Assembly (NCBI GenBank): GCA_001887945.1
Contig: LDOQ01000261.1
Coordinates: 20,008-84,007, forward strand
Direction: 5' to 3'
Length of the DNA: 64,000 bases
From: Spraguea lophii
Lineage: Eukaryota > Microsporidia > Spragueidae
Below are positions 5,790 to 60,765 of the stretch, piece after piece. Position numbers and translations under genes: made by a program. Below the pieces are notes generated by a model. It had not been told where the DNA came from and searched no databases. It saw only the letters and a program-made list of their open reading frames with translations. The first letter of the stretch is position 1. Every line of letters starts with the position of its first letter.

Positions 5790-5880
5790 GCCCGCTTAGC
5801 TAAATGGTCATAAAGTAGTAATCAAATCCCAAACATAGTGAATTCTAATTTCCCATCCGAAAAATTTTCAAAAAAAAATA
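5790..5880 (+). mobile_element. SINE fragment (tRNA-like head only)
   Basis: CCCGCTTAGCTAAATGGTCA, the following GTAGTAATCAAATCCCAAAC and the later CCATCCGAAAAATTTTCAA match the tRNA-derived head and the A-rich joint of the intact SINE at 46716. The body and tail are absent. The fragment runs directly into a Merlin transposase relic on the other strand. Confidence 0.7.
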
Positions 5881-13004: not shown

Positions 13005-13503
13005 ACTTCTATTTTTTTTTATTAATGAAACTTTTATTTATCAAAGTTCCCTGGCCGGTTTCGCCTACCATGGTCTGTGACCTTCGGTTCCTCAAGCAAA
13101 TCTAAGTTTGTACTAACCGGTTTCGCTACGATATGCATTAATCTCGTCTTACCTTATGCTCTAGCATGTTCGGATTTTGCGTATGGTGCGCGTCGCCGCC
13201 CCTCCCAGCTTTTAAGGAATTCCTAACCTCTTTCGTTGCATAGCACTGGCTGGGTTATAAATCAATACAGGGATTGCAACTAAATCAACTAAACATTATT
13301 TCAATTGATCAGTGGGCCGTCATACAAGGCACAGCTATGCTGCGCTATCGAAACCTCACCCACTCAACAACCTTTTTCTTCTCTTCTACGTTTATTATTA
13401 TTTTTTTTTGTTTATATTTTGAAAATTCTTCGAGATGAGGGATTCGAACTCGCCAGGCTTGGGGTTTGGTTACCACCCCACGACCACCAGACCAAGCGGG
13501 ACT
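13005..13503 (-). mobile_element. SINE, near full-length copy
   Basis: This copy is oriented on the minus strand. The tRNA-like head with a B-box-like sequence lies at about 13430-13503 and the poly-A tail (poly-T on the plus strand) at 13010-13020. It aligns along its length to the copy at 46716-47212, including the conserved segments around GCGCGTCGCCGCC and ATATGCATTAATCTCGTCTT. Possible imperfect target duplications are CTTCTATTTT at the tail and CTCCTATTTT at the head, with one mismatch. A 71-codon plus-strand frame inside it is antisense noise. Confidence 0.85.
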
Positions 13504-15564: not shown

Positions 15565-15895
15565 ATTTCCTATATGCTTCAGAAAATTGATATTTTACGT
15601 ATGGTAAAATCATCATTTTTTTCAATTTTAATATAATTTTGAATTTGACATAGTATTATCCAAGTCAATAATCAATACAGGGGTAGTAACATCATTAACC
15701 AATCACTGCTTTAATTTAATATTGGCGACCTCTCGTACAGATTGATATATTCAAGGTTATAACCCATTCATTTAATCACGTTTTGTTAAATACTTTTTAT
15801 TTTTTTGTTTTAAAAATTTTTCAATGTAAAGATTCAAACCTATCAGATCGGAATTTGGATATAACTCCGCGGTCATTGAGGTAATCGAATCTAGC
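15565..15895 (-). mobile_element. SINE, old fragment
   Basis: Segments such as TATATGCTTCAGAAAATTGA, ATTTTACGTATGG, AATCAATACAGGG and CATCATTAACCAATCACTGC align in order with the antisense of the 46716 SINE. The head side ends in a decayed B-box region near 15835-15885. The 3' tail is missing. Confidence 0.65.
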
Positions 15896-18564: not shown

Positions 18565-18790
18565 TATTGATTGGTAATTTAGTTAATGTTATGTCAAGGA
18601 AGGAAGTAAAACTATAATAAGAAAGGATATACCGGTAATATATATCATCTCTATAGTTCTTATTTGATGGAGTATAAGATAAGATGAGATTAATAAATAT
18701 ATGTGTTAGAATAATTAGTACAAATTATTTGTATTTAAAGAAATCAAAATCCCAAATATTTTAAACAAGTCCAACTCAAACGCTTTAATT
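18565..18790 (+). mobile_element. SINE, decayed 3' fragment
   Basis: ATAAGATAAGATGAGATTAA and TTAGTACAAATTATTTGTAT align in order with the 3' half of the SINE at 46716. Upstream, TTGATTGGTAATTTAGTTAA matches its TTGATTTGTGACTCGGCCAA segment. The head and tail are not recognisable. Confidence 0.6.
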
Positions 18791-19326: not shown

Positions 19327-19795
19327 ACCCATTTTGAATGGTTATGGGATGGTAACCAAATTTTAATCCTAGCAGATTTGAATCTTTTATCTAGTGAATT
19401 TCAAAAAACGAATACATGGTAGGAAAGAAGAGAAAGGTTGTTGAATGGATGAGGGTTTGATAACTTAACATTGGTTATACCTTGTATAACGACTTTATTA
19501 CCAAATTAAAGTAGTGCTTAACTGATGTAATTGCAATCCTTGTATTGATTTGTGATTCGATCAATATTATACCAAAAACGAGGTTAGGAATTTATAAAAC
19601 ATTAGGAGGGAATAGTGACACGCATCATACATAAAATCCTAACATTCTGGACCACTAAAAAAATAATACTAATAATAAATATCCATAGAAAACCCAATTA
19701 GTACAAGTTTAAATGTACTTTAGGAACCAAAGATCATAGACTACAATAGACTGACCAGGAAATTTCATTAAAAGTTCCATTAATAAAAATCTTTT
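19327..19795 (+). mobile_element. SINE, near full-length degenerate copy
   Basis: From GGTTATGGGATGGTAACCAA (head) to CCAGGAAATTTCATTAAAAG (tail), the segment aligns along its length with the 46716 copy. The GC-rich positions have mostly drifted to A or T. The B-box is decayed (AGATTTGAATC), so pol III activity is unlikely. Confidence 0.8.
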
Positions 19796-29776: not shown

Positions 29777-29878
29777 ATCAGTTAATACAAGTTTAAATAT
29801 ATTTTAGGAACCAAAGGTTATACCATAATAGACTACAGTCAATCAGAAAACTTCGATAACTAAAAGTTTCATTGTATT
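29777..29878 (+). mobile_element. SINE, 3' end fragment
   Basis: CAGTTAATACAAGTTTAAAT, TTTTAGGAACCAAAGGTTAT and CAGTCAATCAGAAAACTTCG align with the last 110 bp of the SINE at 46716 up to its tail. Confidence 0.7.
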
Positions 29879-32683: not shown

Positions 32684-32850
32684 TATATGTTAATAACACT
32701 CTGGAAGATAAAATAAAATGAGATTAATGCATATCTGTAATAAAATCAATCAGTATAAATTTAAATGTATCTTAATAACCAAAGATTATAAACCATGGTA
32801 AAACGCATCCGACCAAAAAATTTCTATAAATAAAAGTTCTATTAAAAAAA
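32684..32850 (+). mobile_element. SINE, 3' fragment
   Basis: AACACTCTGGAAGATAAAAT, AAAATGAGATTAATGCATAT, CAATCAGTATAAATTTAAAT and CTATAAATAAAAGTTCTATT follow the 3' third and tail of the SINE at 46716. The head and body are missing. Confidence 0.75.
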
Positions 32851-33346
32851 CTTATAAATTATATTTTTTATATTAACGAGATAACCGTTAACAGATATTA
32901 CTCTCAATAACATTAATTTTTCATTTATATTAAGAGGTTTTCATATTTATCTACATTTTATGTTGTATAAATTTCTTAATTTTATTCTTGTATTTATTAT
33001 ATTTTCTGTTGTGTTATATTTTCTATATTTATCTTTTATTTTAATTTATTACGAATAATATCTTCTTTTGAATTAATTATTCTGATTTGTAATTTTTATC
33101 ATTTTCTTATATTGACATTAAGATATATATTATTAAATTATTATTTATAATTTTATAAGAACATTTAAAATTTAAAAAGATATTGAATTTAAGTTATATA
33201 AATTTGAGGTTTTAAAAGATATTGAATTTAATTATATATGTGTCTTATATGTTTATCAATCATAAATTCTAAAAATATTGATTATTTTTAGAAAGGATAA
33301 CATAGATTTATAAAATAAATTTTATAAACCATACCCCTCTTATACG
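32851..33346. other. Intergenic; upstream of the small membrane protein pair
   Basis: No gene seen. Near 33180-33235 two copies of AAAAGATATTGAATTTAA occur, and GGATAACATAGATTTATAAA (33296-33315) recurs before the second paralogue. Confidence 0.45.
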
Positions 33347-39070: not shown

Positions 39071-39525
39071 ACCCCGCTTTGTTTTCTGTGGTTGTAGAAT
39101 GGTGAACAAATCTCAAGCTTGATATGTTTGAATTTTGTCACACAAAAGAATTTTCAAAAAAAAGAATGAAAAGAAGAAGATGAAATGAGGAGTTGTTGAG
39201 TGGATGTGGATTTGATAGTGTAACACTGGCTATGTGTACGATAGCTATATTACTATATTAAAATTGTGTTTAATTGGTGTAAATACAATTCTTGTATTGA
39301 TTTGTGATAAGTGAATATTATATCAAGAAAGAGAATAAGAATCTCATTAATGATGATAAAGCGATGATTGTATCATACGCAAAATTCTAACACTCTAGGA
39401 CATAAGGATATATATTGCGAAATTGATTAAACATGTTTATATGTGTTTTAGCAACTAAAGATCACAAACCACAATAATGTATGAAATTTCTATAAATAAA
39501 GTTTTAGTTAAGAGAATAAAAACTG
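39071..39525 (+). mobile_element. SINE, near full-length degenerate copy
   Basis: It begins with CCCCGCTTTGTTTTCTGTGG and GAATGGTGAACAAATCTCAA (head), continues through GAGTGGATGTGGATTTGATA and ACAATTCTTGTATTGATTTG, and ends at CTATAAATAAAGTTTTAG. This follows the order of the 46716 copy. The B-box has decayed (GTTTGAATTTT). Confidence 0.8.
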
Positions 39526-45235: not shown

Positions 45236-45350
45236 ATCATCATTCTATCATCCTTAATAAGATTCTAACATTCTTCTTGATATAATAATAATCAAAACAC
45301 AAATAAATACAGGGATTGCAATTACATCAGCTAAATACTACTTTAATCTA
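45236..45350 (-). mobile_element. SINE, internal fragment
   Basis: AATAAATACAGGGATTGCAA and TTACATCAGCTAAATACTAC, followed by TTTAATCTA, match the antisense of the SINE body near 46905-46945. Confidence 0.65.
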
Positions 45351-45514
45351 AGATACTGGGATAGTATTATCTATTGTTATTTATAATAATTATTTTATAA
45401 CTATTAATAACTCTTATACTATTTATTATTATTTTTAATAATTATTTCATAACCCCCTTAATTTTTATAGTATTTAATATTTTTAATAATTTAATTTTAC
45501 CCTTATTAAGCTAA

Positions 45515-45754: not shown

Positions 45755-46715
45755 TATAATTTAAATAAATCATAGGTTATATATAATTTGTGTTAGGTTT
45801 ATTTGTAATTATTTATATTGAATTATATACGACTTGTGTTAAGTTTATCTGTATTATTGTTGAAAGTTAAGGATTTAGGAAAAAACTTTATTTAAATTTA
45901 TTAGTTATATAACTTTTATGATTTAGAAAACTTTATTCTAATTTTTCCGTAATTAAAATGATCATTTTGGTTGTGTTAATATTAAATTTTATATTGTTTT
46001 TTATTTGTAAAAAATTTGAATTTTTAATTTTCAATAAATATATTTGTATTATATTTATAATACAGTTGGTAAAACTGTTACCTTAACGAGAATGATAAGT
46101 GAGAGCTTATAATGAATGTCTATATATTTTTAGGAAAATTTTCGAAATGATCAAGCATGTGTTAAATGATATTATAATTAATTTAAAAAAGATTGAAAAT
46201 AACCAGCGGGGATGTATTTTATACATTTTCAATTTATAATTGTAATTGATATTTTGTATGTTGTTATTCAATAGGAAGGACTGGCTTCTGTATATAATGT
46301 AAATACTAGTGATATGAAAATTATAAGAAGATATTTTTAGTCAGAAAATGTTAATGAAGTTTTTATTATATAAAAATTTAATTATAAATATATTGTTATT
46401 AAAAATTAATATACACTTCATATTTTTTACTCGATATAATTCCTATAAATATTCTCTGTATAAGCTCTTAAAATTCTCTTATTGTCAATTGTGACCTTTA
46501 CTTTTTGGTTTTTAAATATTAATGAATAATTTCAAAAATTATTAATAAAAACTCGGGAATTGGACATTGAAAGAATTATAATTATCAAGTACACGTATTT
46601 ATTGTATTTAGATTCTTTTATATTAATGTAAATATTATAAAATATATATTATACTAATAAAAATATCAAATTAGTTTAAATGTACTTTTATTAAAAACAG
46701 TAATGAAAATATTAT
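45755..46715. other. About 960 bp without a gene
   Basis: AT-rich. I looked for snRNA- or tRNA-like structures around 46190-46320, where base composition is more balanced, but found nothing I can support. Confidence 0.4.
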
Positions 46716-47212
46716 AGTCCCGCCTGGCCCAGTGGTCATGGAGTGGTAACCAAACCCCAAGCCTGGCGGGTTCGAATCCCTCATCCAGAAAAAATTTTCA
46801 AAAAAAAAATAATAATAAATGTAGAAGAGAAGAAAAAGGTTGTTGAGTGGGTGAGGTTTCGATAGTGCAGCATAGCTGTGCCTTGTATGACGGCCCCGCT
46901 ACTAGATTAAAGTAGTGTTCAGCTGATGTAGTTGCAATCCCTGTATTGATTTGTGACTCGGCCAATACTATGCAACGAAAGAGGCTGGGAATTCCTTAAG
47001 AGCTGGAAGTGGGGGCGGCGACGCGCACCATACGCAAAATCCTAACACTCTGGAGCATAAGGTAAGATGAGATTAATGCATATCTGTAGCGAAACCAGTT
47101 AGTACAAGTTTAATGTCGCTCGAGGAACCGAAGGTCACAGACCATGGTAGGCCGCAACCGGCCAGGAAGCTTTGATAAATAAAAGTTTCATTCGTAAAAA
47201 AAAATAAAAAAA
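46716..47212 (+). mobile_element. tRNA-derived SINE, full-length copy with 14-bp TSD
   Basis: The head reads as a tRNA-like unit with a canonical pol III A box (TGGCCCAGTGG, 46725-46735) and B box (GGTTCGAATCC, 46769-46779). A body of about 400 bp follows and ends in an A-rich tail. The exact 14-mer AATGAAAATATTAT flanks both sides (46702-46715 and 47213-47226), as expected for target-primed insertion by LINE machinery. The element is GC-richer than its host DNA. It contains no coding frame. This is the best preserved of about fourteen copies in the window. Confidence 0.92.
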
Positions 47213-47489
47213 AATGAAAATATTATTGGCTGAGATTATATATATTCTTCATCATTTGGCCTTGTCATAGGTAGGTTTATTTTTATTGTTACAAGACTTA
47301 TCAATAGGATAAAAGCATACCATATAACTCTTAACAACCATATTAAACTAACGTATTCCAATGTAATATGATCCTATTTATGATTTTAATGATATTATTA
47401 GAGTTGATATTTTAAAGATATTAAATGGTAATTATTTAGATTTATATGAATTCAGAAGATAAAAAGGAAAGAAGTTTATGTAAAATTAT
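47213..47489. other. Spacer between two inverted SINE copies
   Basis: About 280 bp of AT-rich sequence between tail-to-tail SINEs; nothing else seen. Confidence 0.5.
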
Positions 47490-47970
47490 TTTTTTTATTA
47501 ATAAGACTTTTATTTGTTATAAGTCTCCTGGCCGATTGAGGTATACTATGATCAGAGACTTTTAGTTCTTAGAGCACACTTAAACTTGCACTAATTAATT
47601 TCACCACAGATATGCATTAATCTCATCTTGCCTTATGTATAAAGTGTTAGAAGTTTGTATATAACGCATTTTCCCCTCACAGTTTTCAGAGATTGCTAAC
47701 CTCTTTATTGGCATAGTATTGGCTGAGTCACAAATCAATACAGTGATTGCAACTACATCAGCTGAACACTACTTTAATCTAGTAGCGGGGCCGTCATACA
47801 AGGCACAGCTATGCTGCACTATCGAAACCTCACCCACTCAACAACCTTTTTCTTCTCTTCTACATTTATTATTATTATTTTTTTTTGAAAATTTTTTCTG
47901 GATGAGGGATTCGAACCCGCCAGGCTTGGGGTTTGGTTACCACCCCACGACCACTGGGCCAGGCGGGCTT
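47490..47970 (-). mobile_element. tRNA-derived SINE, full-length copy, inverted
   Basis: Head with intact A box (TGGCCCAGTGG on the minus strand, near 47953-47963) and B box (GGTTCGAATCC near 47909-47919), body, and A-rich tail at 47486-47497. The head half is almost identical to the 46716 copy; the tail half has more A/T changes. An 87-codon plus frame within it is antisense noise. Confidence 0.88.
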
Positions 47971-48049: not shown

Positions 48050-48160
48050 ATCATGGGGGAGGTTTAATAGTTTATCTTGGTTATGCTTTATATATAAATT
48101 AAATTACTAAATCAATGCGATAATAAGTTGATATGATTATAATTCAGGTATTTTTGGGCG
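48050..48160 (+). mobile_element. SINE, internal fragment
   Basis: GGGGGAGGTTTAATAGTTTA and CTTGGTTATGCTTTATATAT follow the SINE body segment GGGTGAGGTTTCGATAGTGC...TGTGCCTTGTATGA. Strongly decayed. Confidence 0.5.
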
Positions 48161-52871: not shown

Positions 52872-53737
52872 ATTTTGTATTTTTGTTGAGCTTTTATAGT
52901 TTTAAAAAGTTCTAGAATTAAATTCGAATTTACTTATATGGTAATTTAAAACAAACAAACAATATATTATTTGCTTTAAAATATACTTTATTAATCATTT
53001 TAATATAACTATTATATATTTATCTTTAATTTATATTTAATTTTAAAATATTCTAAATTCGAATCATGATATTATTATATTTTTTAGTTATACCATTTAA
53101 TTAAATTTCAGGTAAAATGTAAAGATATATTATATTCAGAATTATAAATTTATTTTTTTTAAACCACATTAAATATTTTTAACTTTGTTTGTTTGTTCTG
53201 TATTATTGTTTTGTATATACACTATATCTCTAATTCTTTTAAAATTTTTGATAATATTTAACATATAAGATAATAAAAATATTATGTACATACTTTATTT
53301 TAATCTACTAAAAAATAACATTCCTTTTAAACATATTATTAAGTATTTTGCTATTAAATAAATTTTTTGTTTTATTAAAATTTGAAAGTAAAAAGAATCT
53401 GAAAATTAATCTTATCTCTGATAATAGATATGAAAATTAAAAAGTATTTTTAACTATTTTTTTGTTGTTAAAATTTAAATATGTAAAATGTTGAATTTAT
53501 AAATATTAAAATATAAAAAATAAATATTTCAATATAATTTTAAAATCATTTTATTACAAATAACTATTCGTTAATTATAAGACAGTATTCTTTACAGATT
53601 TTTATTGTTTTTTACTTGTAATATTCTTTTAAATTATTTTAAAATTTCTTTTTTTAATTTTGCCCACGAAAGTTAGATTATTTGTTCTTTTGAAATATAT
53701 AATATTAATAAATATAGTTTAATTACATTTATATATT
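52872..53737. other. No gene seen
   Basis: AT-rich upstream region of the preceding gene. Confidence 0.45.
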
Positions 53738-53998
53738 AATACCATATTATCTTGTGCTCCAGAAGGTTGGGGTTTTACATACGCTACATGTCTTCACCGA
53801 CTCTAATTCCATAAATTTCTGGCATCTTTCATGATATAATATTAACCGGGTCAATAATAAATACAGAATTTTTAACGGAATTCAGCCAAGTATTATTATA
53901 ATTTAATAATGCGTTCACGTATAAGCATATAATATTATACTGTTGTCAGCTTATTAATTTTACACCCAGATGATTTGAATTCATAACTTTCAGTTATT
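53738..53998 (-). mobile_element. SINE, decayed copy
   Basis: TATTATCTTGTGCTCCAGAA, TACATACGCTACATGTCTTC and AATAATAAATACAGAATTTT, followed by a decayed head near 53960-53998 (CACCCAGATGATTTGAATTC), follow the antisense SINE order. Confidence 0.6.
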
Positions 53999-59832: not shown

Positions 59833-60304
59833 AAATAAAATGATTATTTAGAAGAGTATACTGCCCTTAAGTTTACAATAAAACGTAAACAATATGACAC
59901 ACAAGCAGAAACAATAATAAAGTAATATTTAAACCAAAATACAATTAAAATTTACAATATATTTAAATTCATCTTTTCGAAGTAATGTGCCAAAACCACA
60001 ATCTCAGTGAAATAAATTAATCCTTAACATTTTAATTTTAATTTCTTTTTAATAGAAAAATAAGTCTTTTTTTATTATTAAAACTTTAATTATATATAAA
60101 CAATTCTACACGTGTAATTAATCATTATCTAAAAATACAATCTTCAAAACTTTAAAATATTTGAATAAGTAAAAAAATAATAAGCATATACATTTCTTTA
60201 ACATTCAAGAATGATAGAAATTGTAAGATAAAAATTATTATTAAAAGAATCTTTTAAAAATCTTAAAAGATATATCCATATATTAGAATAAAACGGAGTT
60301 AAAT
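59833..60304. other. No gene seen
   Basis: AT-rich 3' flank of the LRR gene. Confidence 0.45.
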
Positions 60305-60765
60305 TTTTAAATAAACTTTTATTTATAGAGGTTTCCTGGCCAACCGTGTCTAATCCACCATAACATTTGATTTCTAAAGGACACTTAAACGTGTGCTGAC
60401 TGGTTTGCTACAGATATGCATTAATCACATCCTACTTATGTTTCAGAGCGGCAGGATCTTGCATATGGTTCACATCGCTATCTTTCCCGGCCTTAAAAAA
60501 ATTCATAACTTTTTTTTTGGCTAATATTGGCTAAATCACAAATTAATACGGATATTGCAACCACATTAACTCAATATTACTTATTCTACAGTAAGATCAT
60601 CACACAAGACATATTTAATGTTACGTTATCAAACCTTTACCCTTCAACAACCTTTGTCTTCTGCCTTTTTTTATTAATTTTTTGAAAATCCTTCTAGGTG
60701 AGGATTCAAATTCGGTAGACTTGGGATTTGGTCACCATCTCATGGCCATTAGACCAAACAGGTTT
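60305..60765 (-). mobile_element. SINE, near full-length copy
   Basis: From the tail (TAAACTTTTATTTATAGAGG) through CAGATATGCATTAATCACAT, GATCTTGCATATGGTTCACA and AACAACCTTTGTCTTCTGCC to the head (GGTCACCATCTCATGGCCAT), it aligns along its length with the antisense of the 46716 copy. About a fifth of positions are changed, mostly G or C to A or T. Both pol III boxes are damaged. Confidence 0.82.

Follow-up and report, generated by a model that had tools for sequence, protein, structure and literature searches.

Is the repeat at positions 46716-47212 of a Spraguea lophii contig (LDOQ01000261.1) a genuine retroposed element and, if so, what moves it? Microsporidia are a textbook case of genome reduction, and a first reading of the letters alone (hereafter the sequence-only reading) had described at this place a tRNA-derived SINE of 497 bp, framed by a perfect target-site duplication (TSD). 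We analyzed the whole stretch of 64,000 nucleotides in which it lies, hereafter named the window, and searched the complete assembly (5.27 Mb, 73 contigs). The microsporidian origin proposed for this DNA is supported by the window MCM4 gene, which in a 38-row tree forms a long branch among microsporidia, without close kin.

The repeat at 46716-47212 is a full-length member of a genuine microsporidian SINE family. Identical 14-mers on both sides, as well as the A and B boxes of the head, were found as first described. Its parts, all on the + strand, are the following.

46702..46715, +, 5' TSD AATGAAAATATTAT, a 14-mer (sequence, TSD test)
46716..47212, +, full-length SINE copy with A-rich tail (sequence, consensus, profile HMM)
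46725..46735, +, A box TGGCCCAGTGG (at 10 in the consensus)
46769..46779, +, B box GGTTCGAATCC (at 54 in the consensus; 44 from A to B, the spacing of tRNA genes)
47119..47167, +, LINE-like tail block (consensus 44/49 identical to the LINE 3' UTR in locus L089; two predicted hairpins)
47166..47195, +, terminal part (resembles the last 34 nt of 5/7 scored LINE ends, beyond controls)
47196..47212, +, A-rich tail (sequence)
47213..47226, +, 3' TSD AATGAAAATATTAT, identical 14-mer (sequence)

Copies in the window and in the genome

Window copies were sought by BLASTN with the 497-bp copy as query (E up to 1e-3), and by a profile HMM built from genome copies. Besides the copy described above, they are:

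5791..5880, +, decayed SINE fragment (head); BLASTN, HMM
13007..13503, -, older full-length SINE, 86% identity to the query; BLASTN, HMM
15648..15880, -, decayed SINE fragment; BLASTN, HMM
18668..18726, +, short SINE fragment; BLASTN only, missed by the HMM
19339..19789, +, old SINE copy, 70% identity; BLASTN, HMM
29778..29873, +, SINE tail fragment; BLASTN, HMM
32694..32858, +, SINE tail fragment; BLASTN, HMM
39073..39472, +, old SINE copy; BLASTN, HMM
45298..45436, -, SINE fragments; BLASTN, HMM
47489..47967, -, older near full-length SINE, 86% identity, TSD search negative; BLASTN, HMM, TSD test
53717..53893, -, SINE fragment; BLASTN, HMM
60304..60762, -, old SINE copy, 70% identity; BLASTN, HMM

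Fourteen places had been proposed at the outset. BLASTN matched 13 of them, with starts at most about 100 bp off, but the one at 48050 had no match. For four copies the BLASTN starts, at 15649, 29779, 39088 and 53724, differ slightly from those tabulated. Short pieces at 92% apart, the identity of the other copies ranges from 66% to 86%. The HMM recovered 12 places, which make up 5.6% of the window, and gave 0 matches on 10 first-order Markov-simulated windows.

At the scale of the assembly, a search with the SINE, in which the best 40 of 462 candidates were scored, returned 43 matches. With at most 3 mismatches allowed, the head motif was matched 166 times, the middle motif 237 times and the tail motif 232 times, versus 0, 0 and 6 times for the respective reversed-pattern controls. 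Well-preserved copies may be estimated at roughly 170-240, and since contigs break at copies the true number is probably higher. The consensus is 494 bp long, with a GC content of 45.7% versus 22.9% in the window. Such a length, together with 166-237 motif matches, is that of the short, high-copy, dispersed repeat expected of a tRNA-derived SINE. The consensus set comprised 32 copies. Of these, 29 came from the 30 best matches fetched, from which L025, interrupted by a contig end, was removed, and the other three are L034, L058b and L077; L054a, L054b and two older copies of the window were not included. Copies of this set, which is biased towards window-like copies, diverge by 0.2-2.8% from the consensus, and relics near 70% identity are also found. 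The range from well-preserved to drifted copies noted at first is thereby confirmed, and SINE activity was both recent and long-standing.

Among the 32 aligned copies, shared variants were nearly unlinked, all four combinations being present in 49 of 66 site pairs. T was found for C at 3.9% in CpG sites versus 1.2% elsewhere, and the non-CpG sites 321 and 405 stayed largely linked. The unlinked variants could result from gene conversion, template switching, recurrent CpG decay or assembly phasing. In L014 (C10:73468-74447), a young SINE lies between two pieces of an older one, which suggests a nested insertion. In the window and 33 SINE-bearing loci, Rfam gave four matches at its gathering thresholds, to RNase P RNA, two tRNAs and 5S rRNA, none of which fell on a SINE. 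An RNase P RNA gene (L019:1180-1413) is located some 90 bp downstream of a young SINE, in the same orientation. Neither IMG/VR nor the GTDB genome set contained an exact match to the tail pattern; as both include few eukaryotes, this says little on distribution.

Promoter-like head and shared LINE tail

The consensus has its A box at position 10 and its B box at 54, a spacing typical of tRNA genes: among 30 fetched tRNA genes, the A-box motif is at position 8 in 23, and the B box at 51-53 in 24. The head also resembles tRNA genes beyond chance, its best alignment score being 43 (30 of the 57 tRNAs compared), when 500 simulated heads reached at most 36 and 8 body windows gave 19-26. No recognisable cloverleaf was found in it. 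The tRNA covariance model RF00005 gave no match on the head at E up to 10, ARAGORN predicted no tRNA in the window, and folding predicts a long hairpin, with shuffled sequences doing as well (z -0.58). The tRNA-like head of the sequence-only reading therefore holds for boxes, spacing and sequence similarity, but not for covariance-model match or cloverleaf. Many SINE heads are without a tRNA cloverleaf. We infer that the head is a tRNA-like internal promoter of the Pol III type. An internal TTTT at consensus position 80 could act as a weak Pol III stop and cause early termination; for comparison, in the 25 nt that follow each of the 57 tRNA genes, the longest T-run measures 4 for four genes and 5-9 for the remaining 53.

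The sequence-only reading also implied a partner LINE, to be sought by comparing the SINE 3' end with LINE 3' ends of the same genome. Such a LINE was found. A block of the SINE consensus is identical at 44 of 49 bp to the 3' UTR, in L089, of a LINE named here LINE-B and known from its C-terminal frame and 3' UTR. Seven of nine LINE 3' stretches were scored, leaving aside L097, which ends too early, and L091, whose end differs. Over the last part before the poly-A, five of the seven scored ends resemble the SINE end, with scores of 20-26; only 2 of 395 control sequences reach 20, and none goes higher. The remaining two score 14, a value that 11% of controls reach. About 110 bp of the LINE, between the two pieces that match the SINE tail, are missing from the SINE. 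The same two hairpins are predicted in the SINE tail (z -3.35) and in the LINE segment (z -2.70), and in each case 1 of 200 shuffles folds as well. A SINE 3' end coming from a LINE of the same genome and a shared 3' stem-loop, the latter by prediction only, are features of stringent LINE/SINE pairs.

With LINE-B as query, the best 40 of 112 candidate places comprised 16 LINE pieces (query included), 21 SINE-like tails and 3 short matches to the end of another element. Because the SINE tail matches its 3' UTR, LINE-B is the likely partner of the SINE. The five longest other LINE copies diverge by 6-10% from the LINE query and SINE copies by 2-5% from theirs, so that the element now driving the SINE may not be among the LINE copies seen. 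An intact RT of LINE-B was not encountered in this assembly. An open endonuclease-RT frame of 479 aa extends as far as the edge of contig C72; its residues 360-467 match L1 ORF2 structures (E ~1e-9), and its two Pfam matches, to an endonuclease and a partial RT, are both below cut-off. It is a candidate for the RT of the LINE-B family.

Nine RVT_1 matches were found in all: four of LTR type (L031, L032, L033 and L036), which we take to be Ty3/gypsy-like, two of LINE type (L034 and L039), two in telomerase RT parts (L035 and L038) and a decayed, unclassified one (L037). The LTR-type loci are pieces of elements, some with long open frames. L038, on contig C2, is a telomerase RT candidate, with Telomerase_RBD and RVT_1 in a 1239-aa frame carrying long asparagine-rich insertions. 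Another LINE 3' end, with a different UTR, is present at L081:1-675; C47:8169, C34:114168 and C20:61518 carry further copies of its last 35 bp.

Insertion and competing explanations

We then asked how copies are joined to their targets. Briefly, the 5' flank was compared with the 3' flank after the tail in 36 copies, older ones included, and the best match was counted as a TSD at a score of 11 or more. TSDs were found in 26 of the 36 copies, as against 0 of 216 mismatched flank pairs, whose maximum score was 10. In the 25 clean cases they are 12-17 bp long, with a mode of 14; variable TSDs adjoining an A-rich tail are characteristic of tRNA-derived SINEs. Ten copies fell below the threshold, and in one of them, L024, an offset match is visible by eye. 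Absence of TSDs at other full-length copies, named in the sequence-only reading as a reason to give it up, was not what we observed. A 5'-truncated copy in L057 (query 321-489), 100% identical, keeps a 13-bp TSD, its TTCATGCAAATAT repeats flanking the copy and lying next to its poly-A. This is the expected signature of target-primed reverse transcription. These duplications, and the truncated copy with its own, are read directly from the sequence. Just before the TSD, T seemed common and A rare; we do not claim a target-site consensus at the nick, because maximal-TSD calling beside a poly-A excludes A there.

All these observations lead us to consider, with high confidence, that the element is a composite SINE made of a tRNA-like head, a body of no recognised origin, a LINE 3' UTR tail and a poly-A. 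Pol III would transcribe it from the A and B boxes. The RT of the partner LINE would bind the tandem hairpins of the shared tail, as suggested by their conserved sequence and predicted fold, and the LINE endonuclease would nick AT-rich DNA. A new copy would then enter by target-primed reverse transcription, duplicating about 14 bp of the target. The tail, on this model, would be a shortened LINE UTR recognised by the LINE RT.

The main competitor is a relaxed, L1/Alu-like mobilisation through the poly-A alone, the tail homology recording only the origin of the element. The poly-A does adjoin the TSDs, the endonuclease-RT frame matches L1 ORF2, and the LINE with the shared tail ends in A-runs too. 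Against this, the shared block, the hairpins and the terminal 30 nt have been retained even though the 110 bp or so between them are gone, and we hold this route to be rather unlikely.

Far less probable is that a larger autonomous element exists, of which the SINE would be the 3' end or an internally deleted form. The tail is LINE-related, and middle (237) and tail (232) motifs outnumber head motifs (166), but 5' truncation and contig breaks fit this 3' excess. TSDs abut both ends of the repeat in 26 of 36 copies, and those at the 5' end already contradict a longer element. The repeat is thus not the terminal part of such an element, in agreement with the initial proposal.

The last two explanations have a negligible probability. 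A non-autonomous DNA transposon (MITE) would also be short, non-coding and present in many copies, but terminal inverted repeats are missing (0 inverted pairs of at least 10 bp in the copy, and only a 7-bp match between the consensus ends), the poly-A is at one end and TSD lengths vary, so this reading was dropped. An assembly or contamination artefact might be suspected from a GC content twice that of the window, and from six contigs (C15, C25, C54, C56, C58 and C60, in loci L070-L075) that start at SINE position 363-364; however, the flanks of the 30 fetched loci are mutually different, AT-rich and mostly provided with their own TSD, and old decayed copies are present in the same contigs. 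The six contig starts overlap the SINE by 126-131 bp, up to its end, as would be expected if a k=127 graph assembly broke at SINE copies. It was this near-constant overlap that led us to abandon another idea, in which position 363 marked a SINE/LINE junction.

Old copies at tRNA terminators and known systems

The 3' flanks of the 57 tRNA genes, all those found in the assembly, were inspected. In five, a SINE begins past the T-run, no more than 20 bp from the end of the tRNA and on its strand. These SINEs are in L046, L054 (without the first 9 bases of the element), L069, L128 (continued in L131) and the truncated L114 (continued in L132), and they diverge by 10-28% from the consensus. From SINE density, 0.05-0.12 cases were expected (Poisson P 2.5e-9 to 1.6e-7, for a 20-bp window chosen post hoc). 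The tRNA of L128 is the weakest of the 57 (41 bits). By eye, no convincing TSD was seen in L131, L132 and L069, and one of about 8 bp in L054. Young SINEs showed no such enrichment: 0 well-preserved heads directly followed a tRNA gene among the 100 listed of 166 counted. In L046 (1684-2994), a DNA transposon with a DDE_3 match, presumably Tc1/mariner-like, interrupts the SINE that follows the tRNA gene.

The old tRNA-adjacent copies could reflect a past target preference, or rare insertions retained at harmless sites. A more complete picture, which we advance as a tentative possibility, is a working LINE/SINE pair in which two hairpins and the terminal 30 nt make the SINE tail a shortened LINE recognition module, and in which older SINE generations were targeted to the T-runs of tRNA terminators. 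Well supported is the general conclusion that an element of a known kind lives in an unusual host, has a likely LINE partner and shows an unexpected link between its old copies and tRNA terminators. Since the family occupies 5.6% of the window, has recent copies and a recognisable LINE partner, it indicates that a genome of about 5 Mb can sustain a thriving two-element parasite system. It also supplies insertion markers with sharp boundaries, its copies mark the places where this assembly breaks, its tail would be a natural shortened version of the element recognised by the LINE RT, and it allows a test of whether insertion downstream of tRNA genes has arisen outside dictyostelids.

Among the matches listed in a search of open-access titles and abstracts, no description of a microsporidian SINE was found. 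The whole word SINE is absent from the main text, within the parts available, of PMC4202319, PMC12558613, PMC7313128, PMC13174016 and PMC12449221. The repeat table of Nosema bombycis does hold a SINE row (28,669 bp, 0.18% of the genome; PMC3614468), which in the passages of that paper used here stands as a table row only, without structure, TSDs or LINE partner. The impression given by the sequence-only reading, that a SINE of this kind had not been well described in microsporidia, agrees with these titles and abstracts, but has to be qualified by the Nosema entry.

Comparable SINEs are known in fungi. Excerpts of PMC5063351 describe SINEs of 140-493 bp in Aspergillus fumigatus, with TSDs of 4-14 bp and one family with a Tad1-type LINE-like tail. 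AfuSINE2 is, as here, a tRNA-related SINE with TSDs in a fungus; its copy number is given there as low, whereas copies of the microsporidian SINE number a few hundred, and many of them are almost identical. Foxy of Fusarium oxysporum (~160 copies) and the SINEs of Magnaporthe grisea, as described in the same excerpts, are fungal and of similar copy number.

As for the tRNA-adjacent copies, in Dictyostelium TRE3 inserts 40-150 bp and Skipper-2 8-23 bp downstream of tRNA genes, according to the consulted part of a 2018 review (PMC5911963), which gives this location for dictyostelids only. Both resemble the old SINEs in lying just downstream of tRNA genes, TRE3 also in tRNA orientation; they are autonomous, whereas here only 5 old SINE copies are concerned, at the terminator T-run.

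Finally, stringent LINE/SINE pairs are known with SmaI of salmon and the LINE UnaL2 of eel (excerpts of PMC3747384 and PMC5135761). With pairs of this type the microsporidian SINE shares Pol III boxes, an unrelated body, a LINE 3' UTR tail, predicted 3' stem-loops and TSDs. It differs from them in that its head has no cloverleaf, and its tail ends in poly-A and matches two separate pieces of the LINE UTR.
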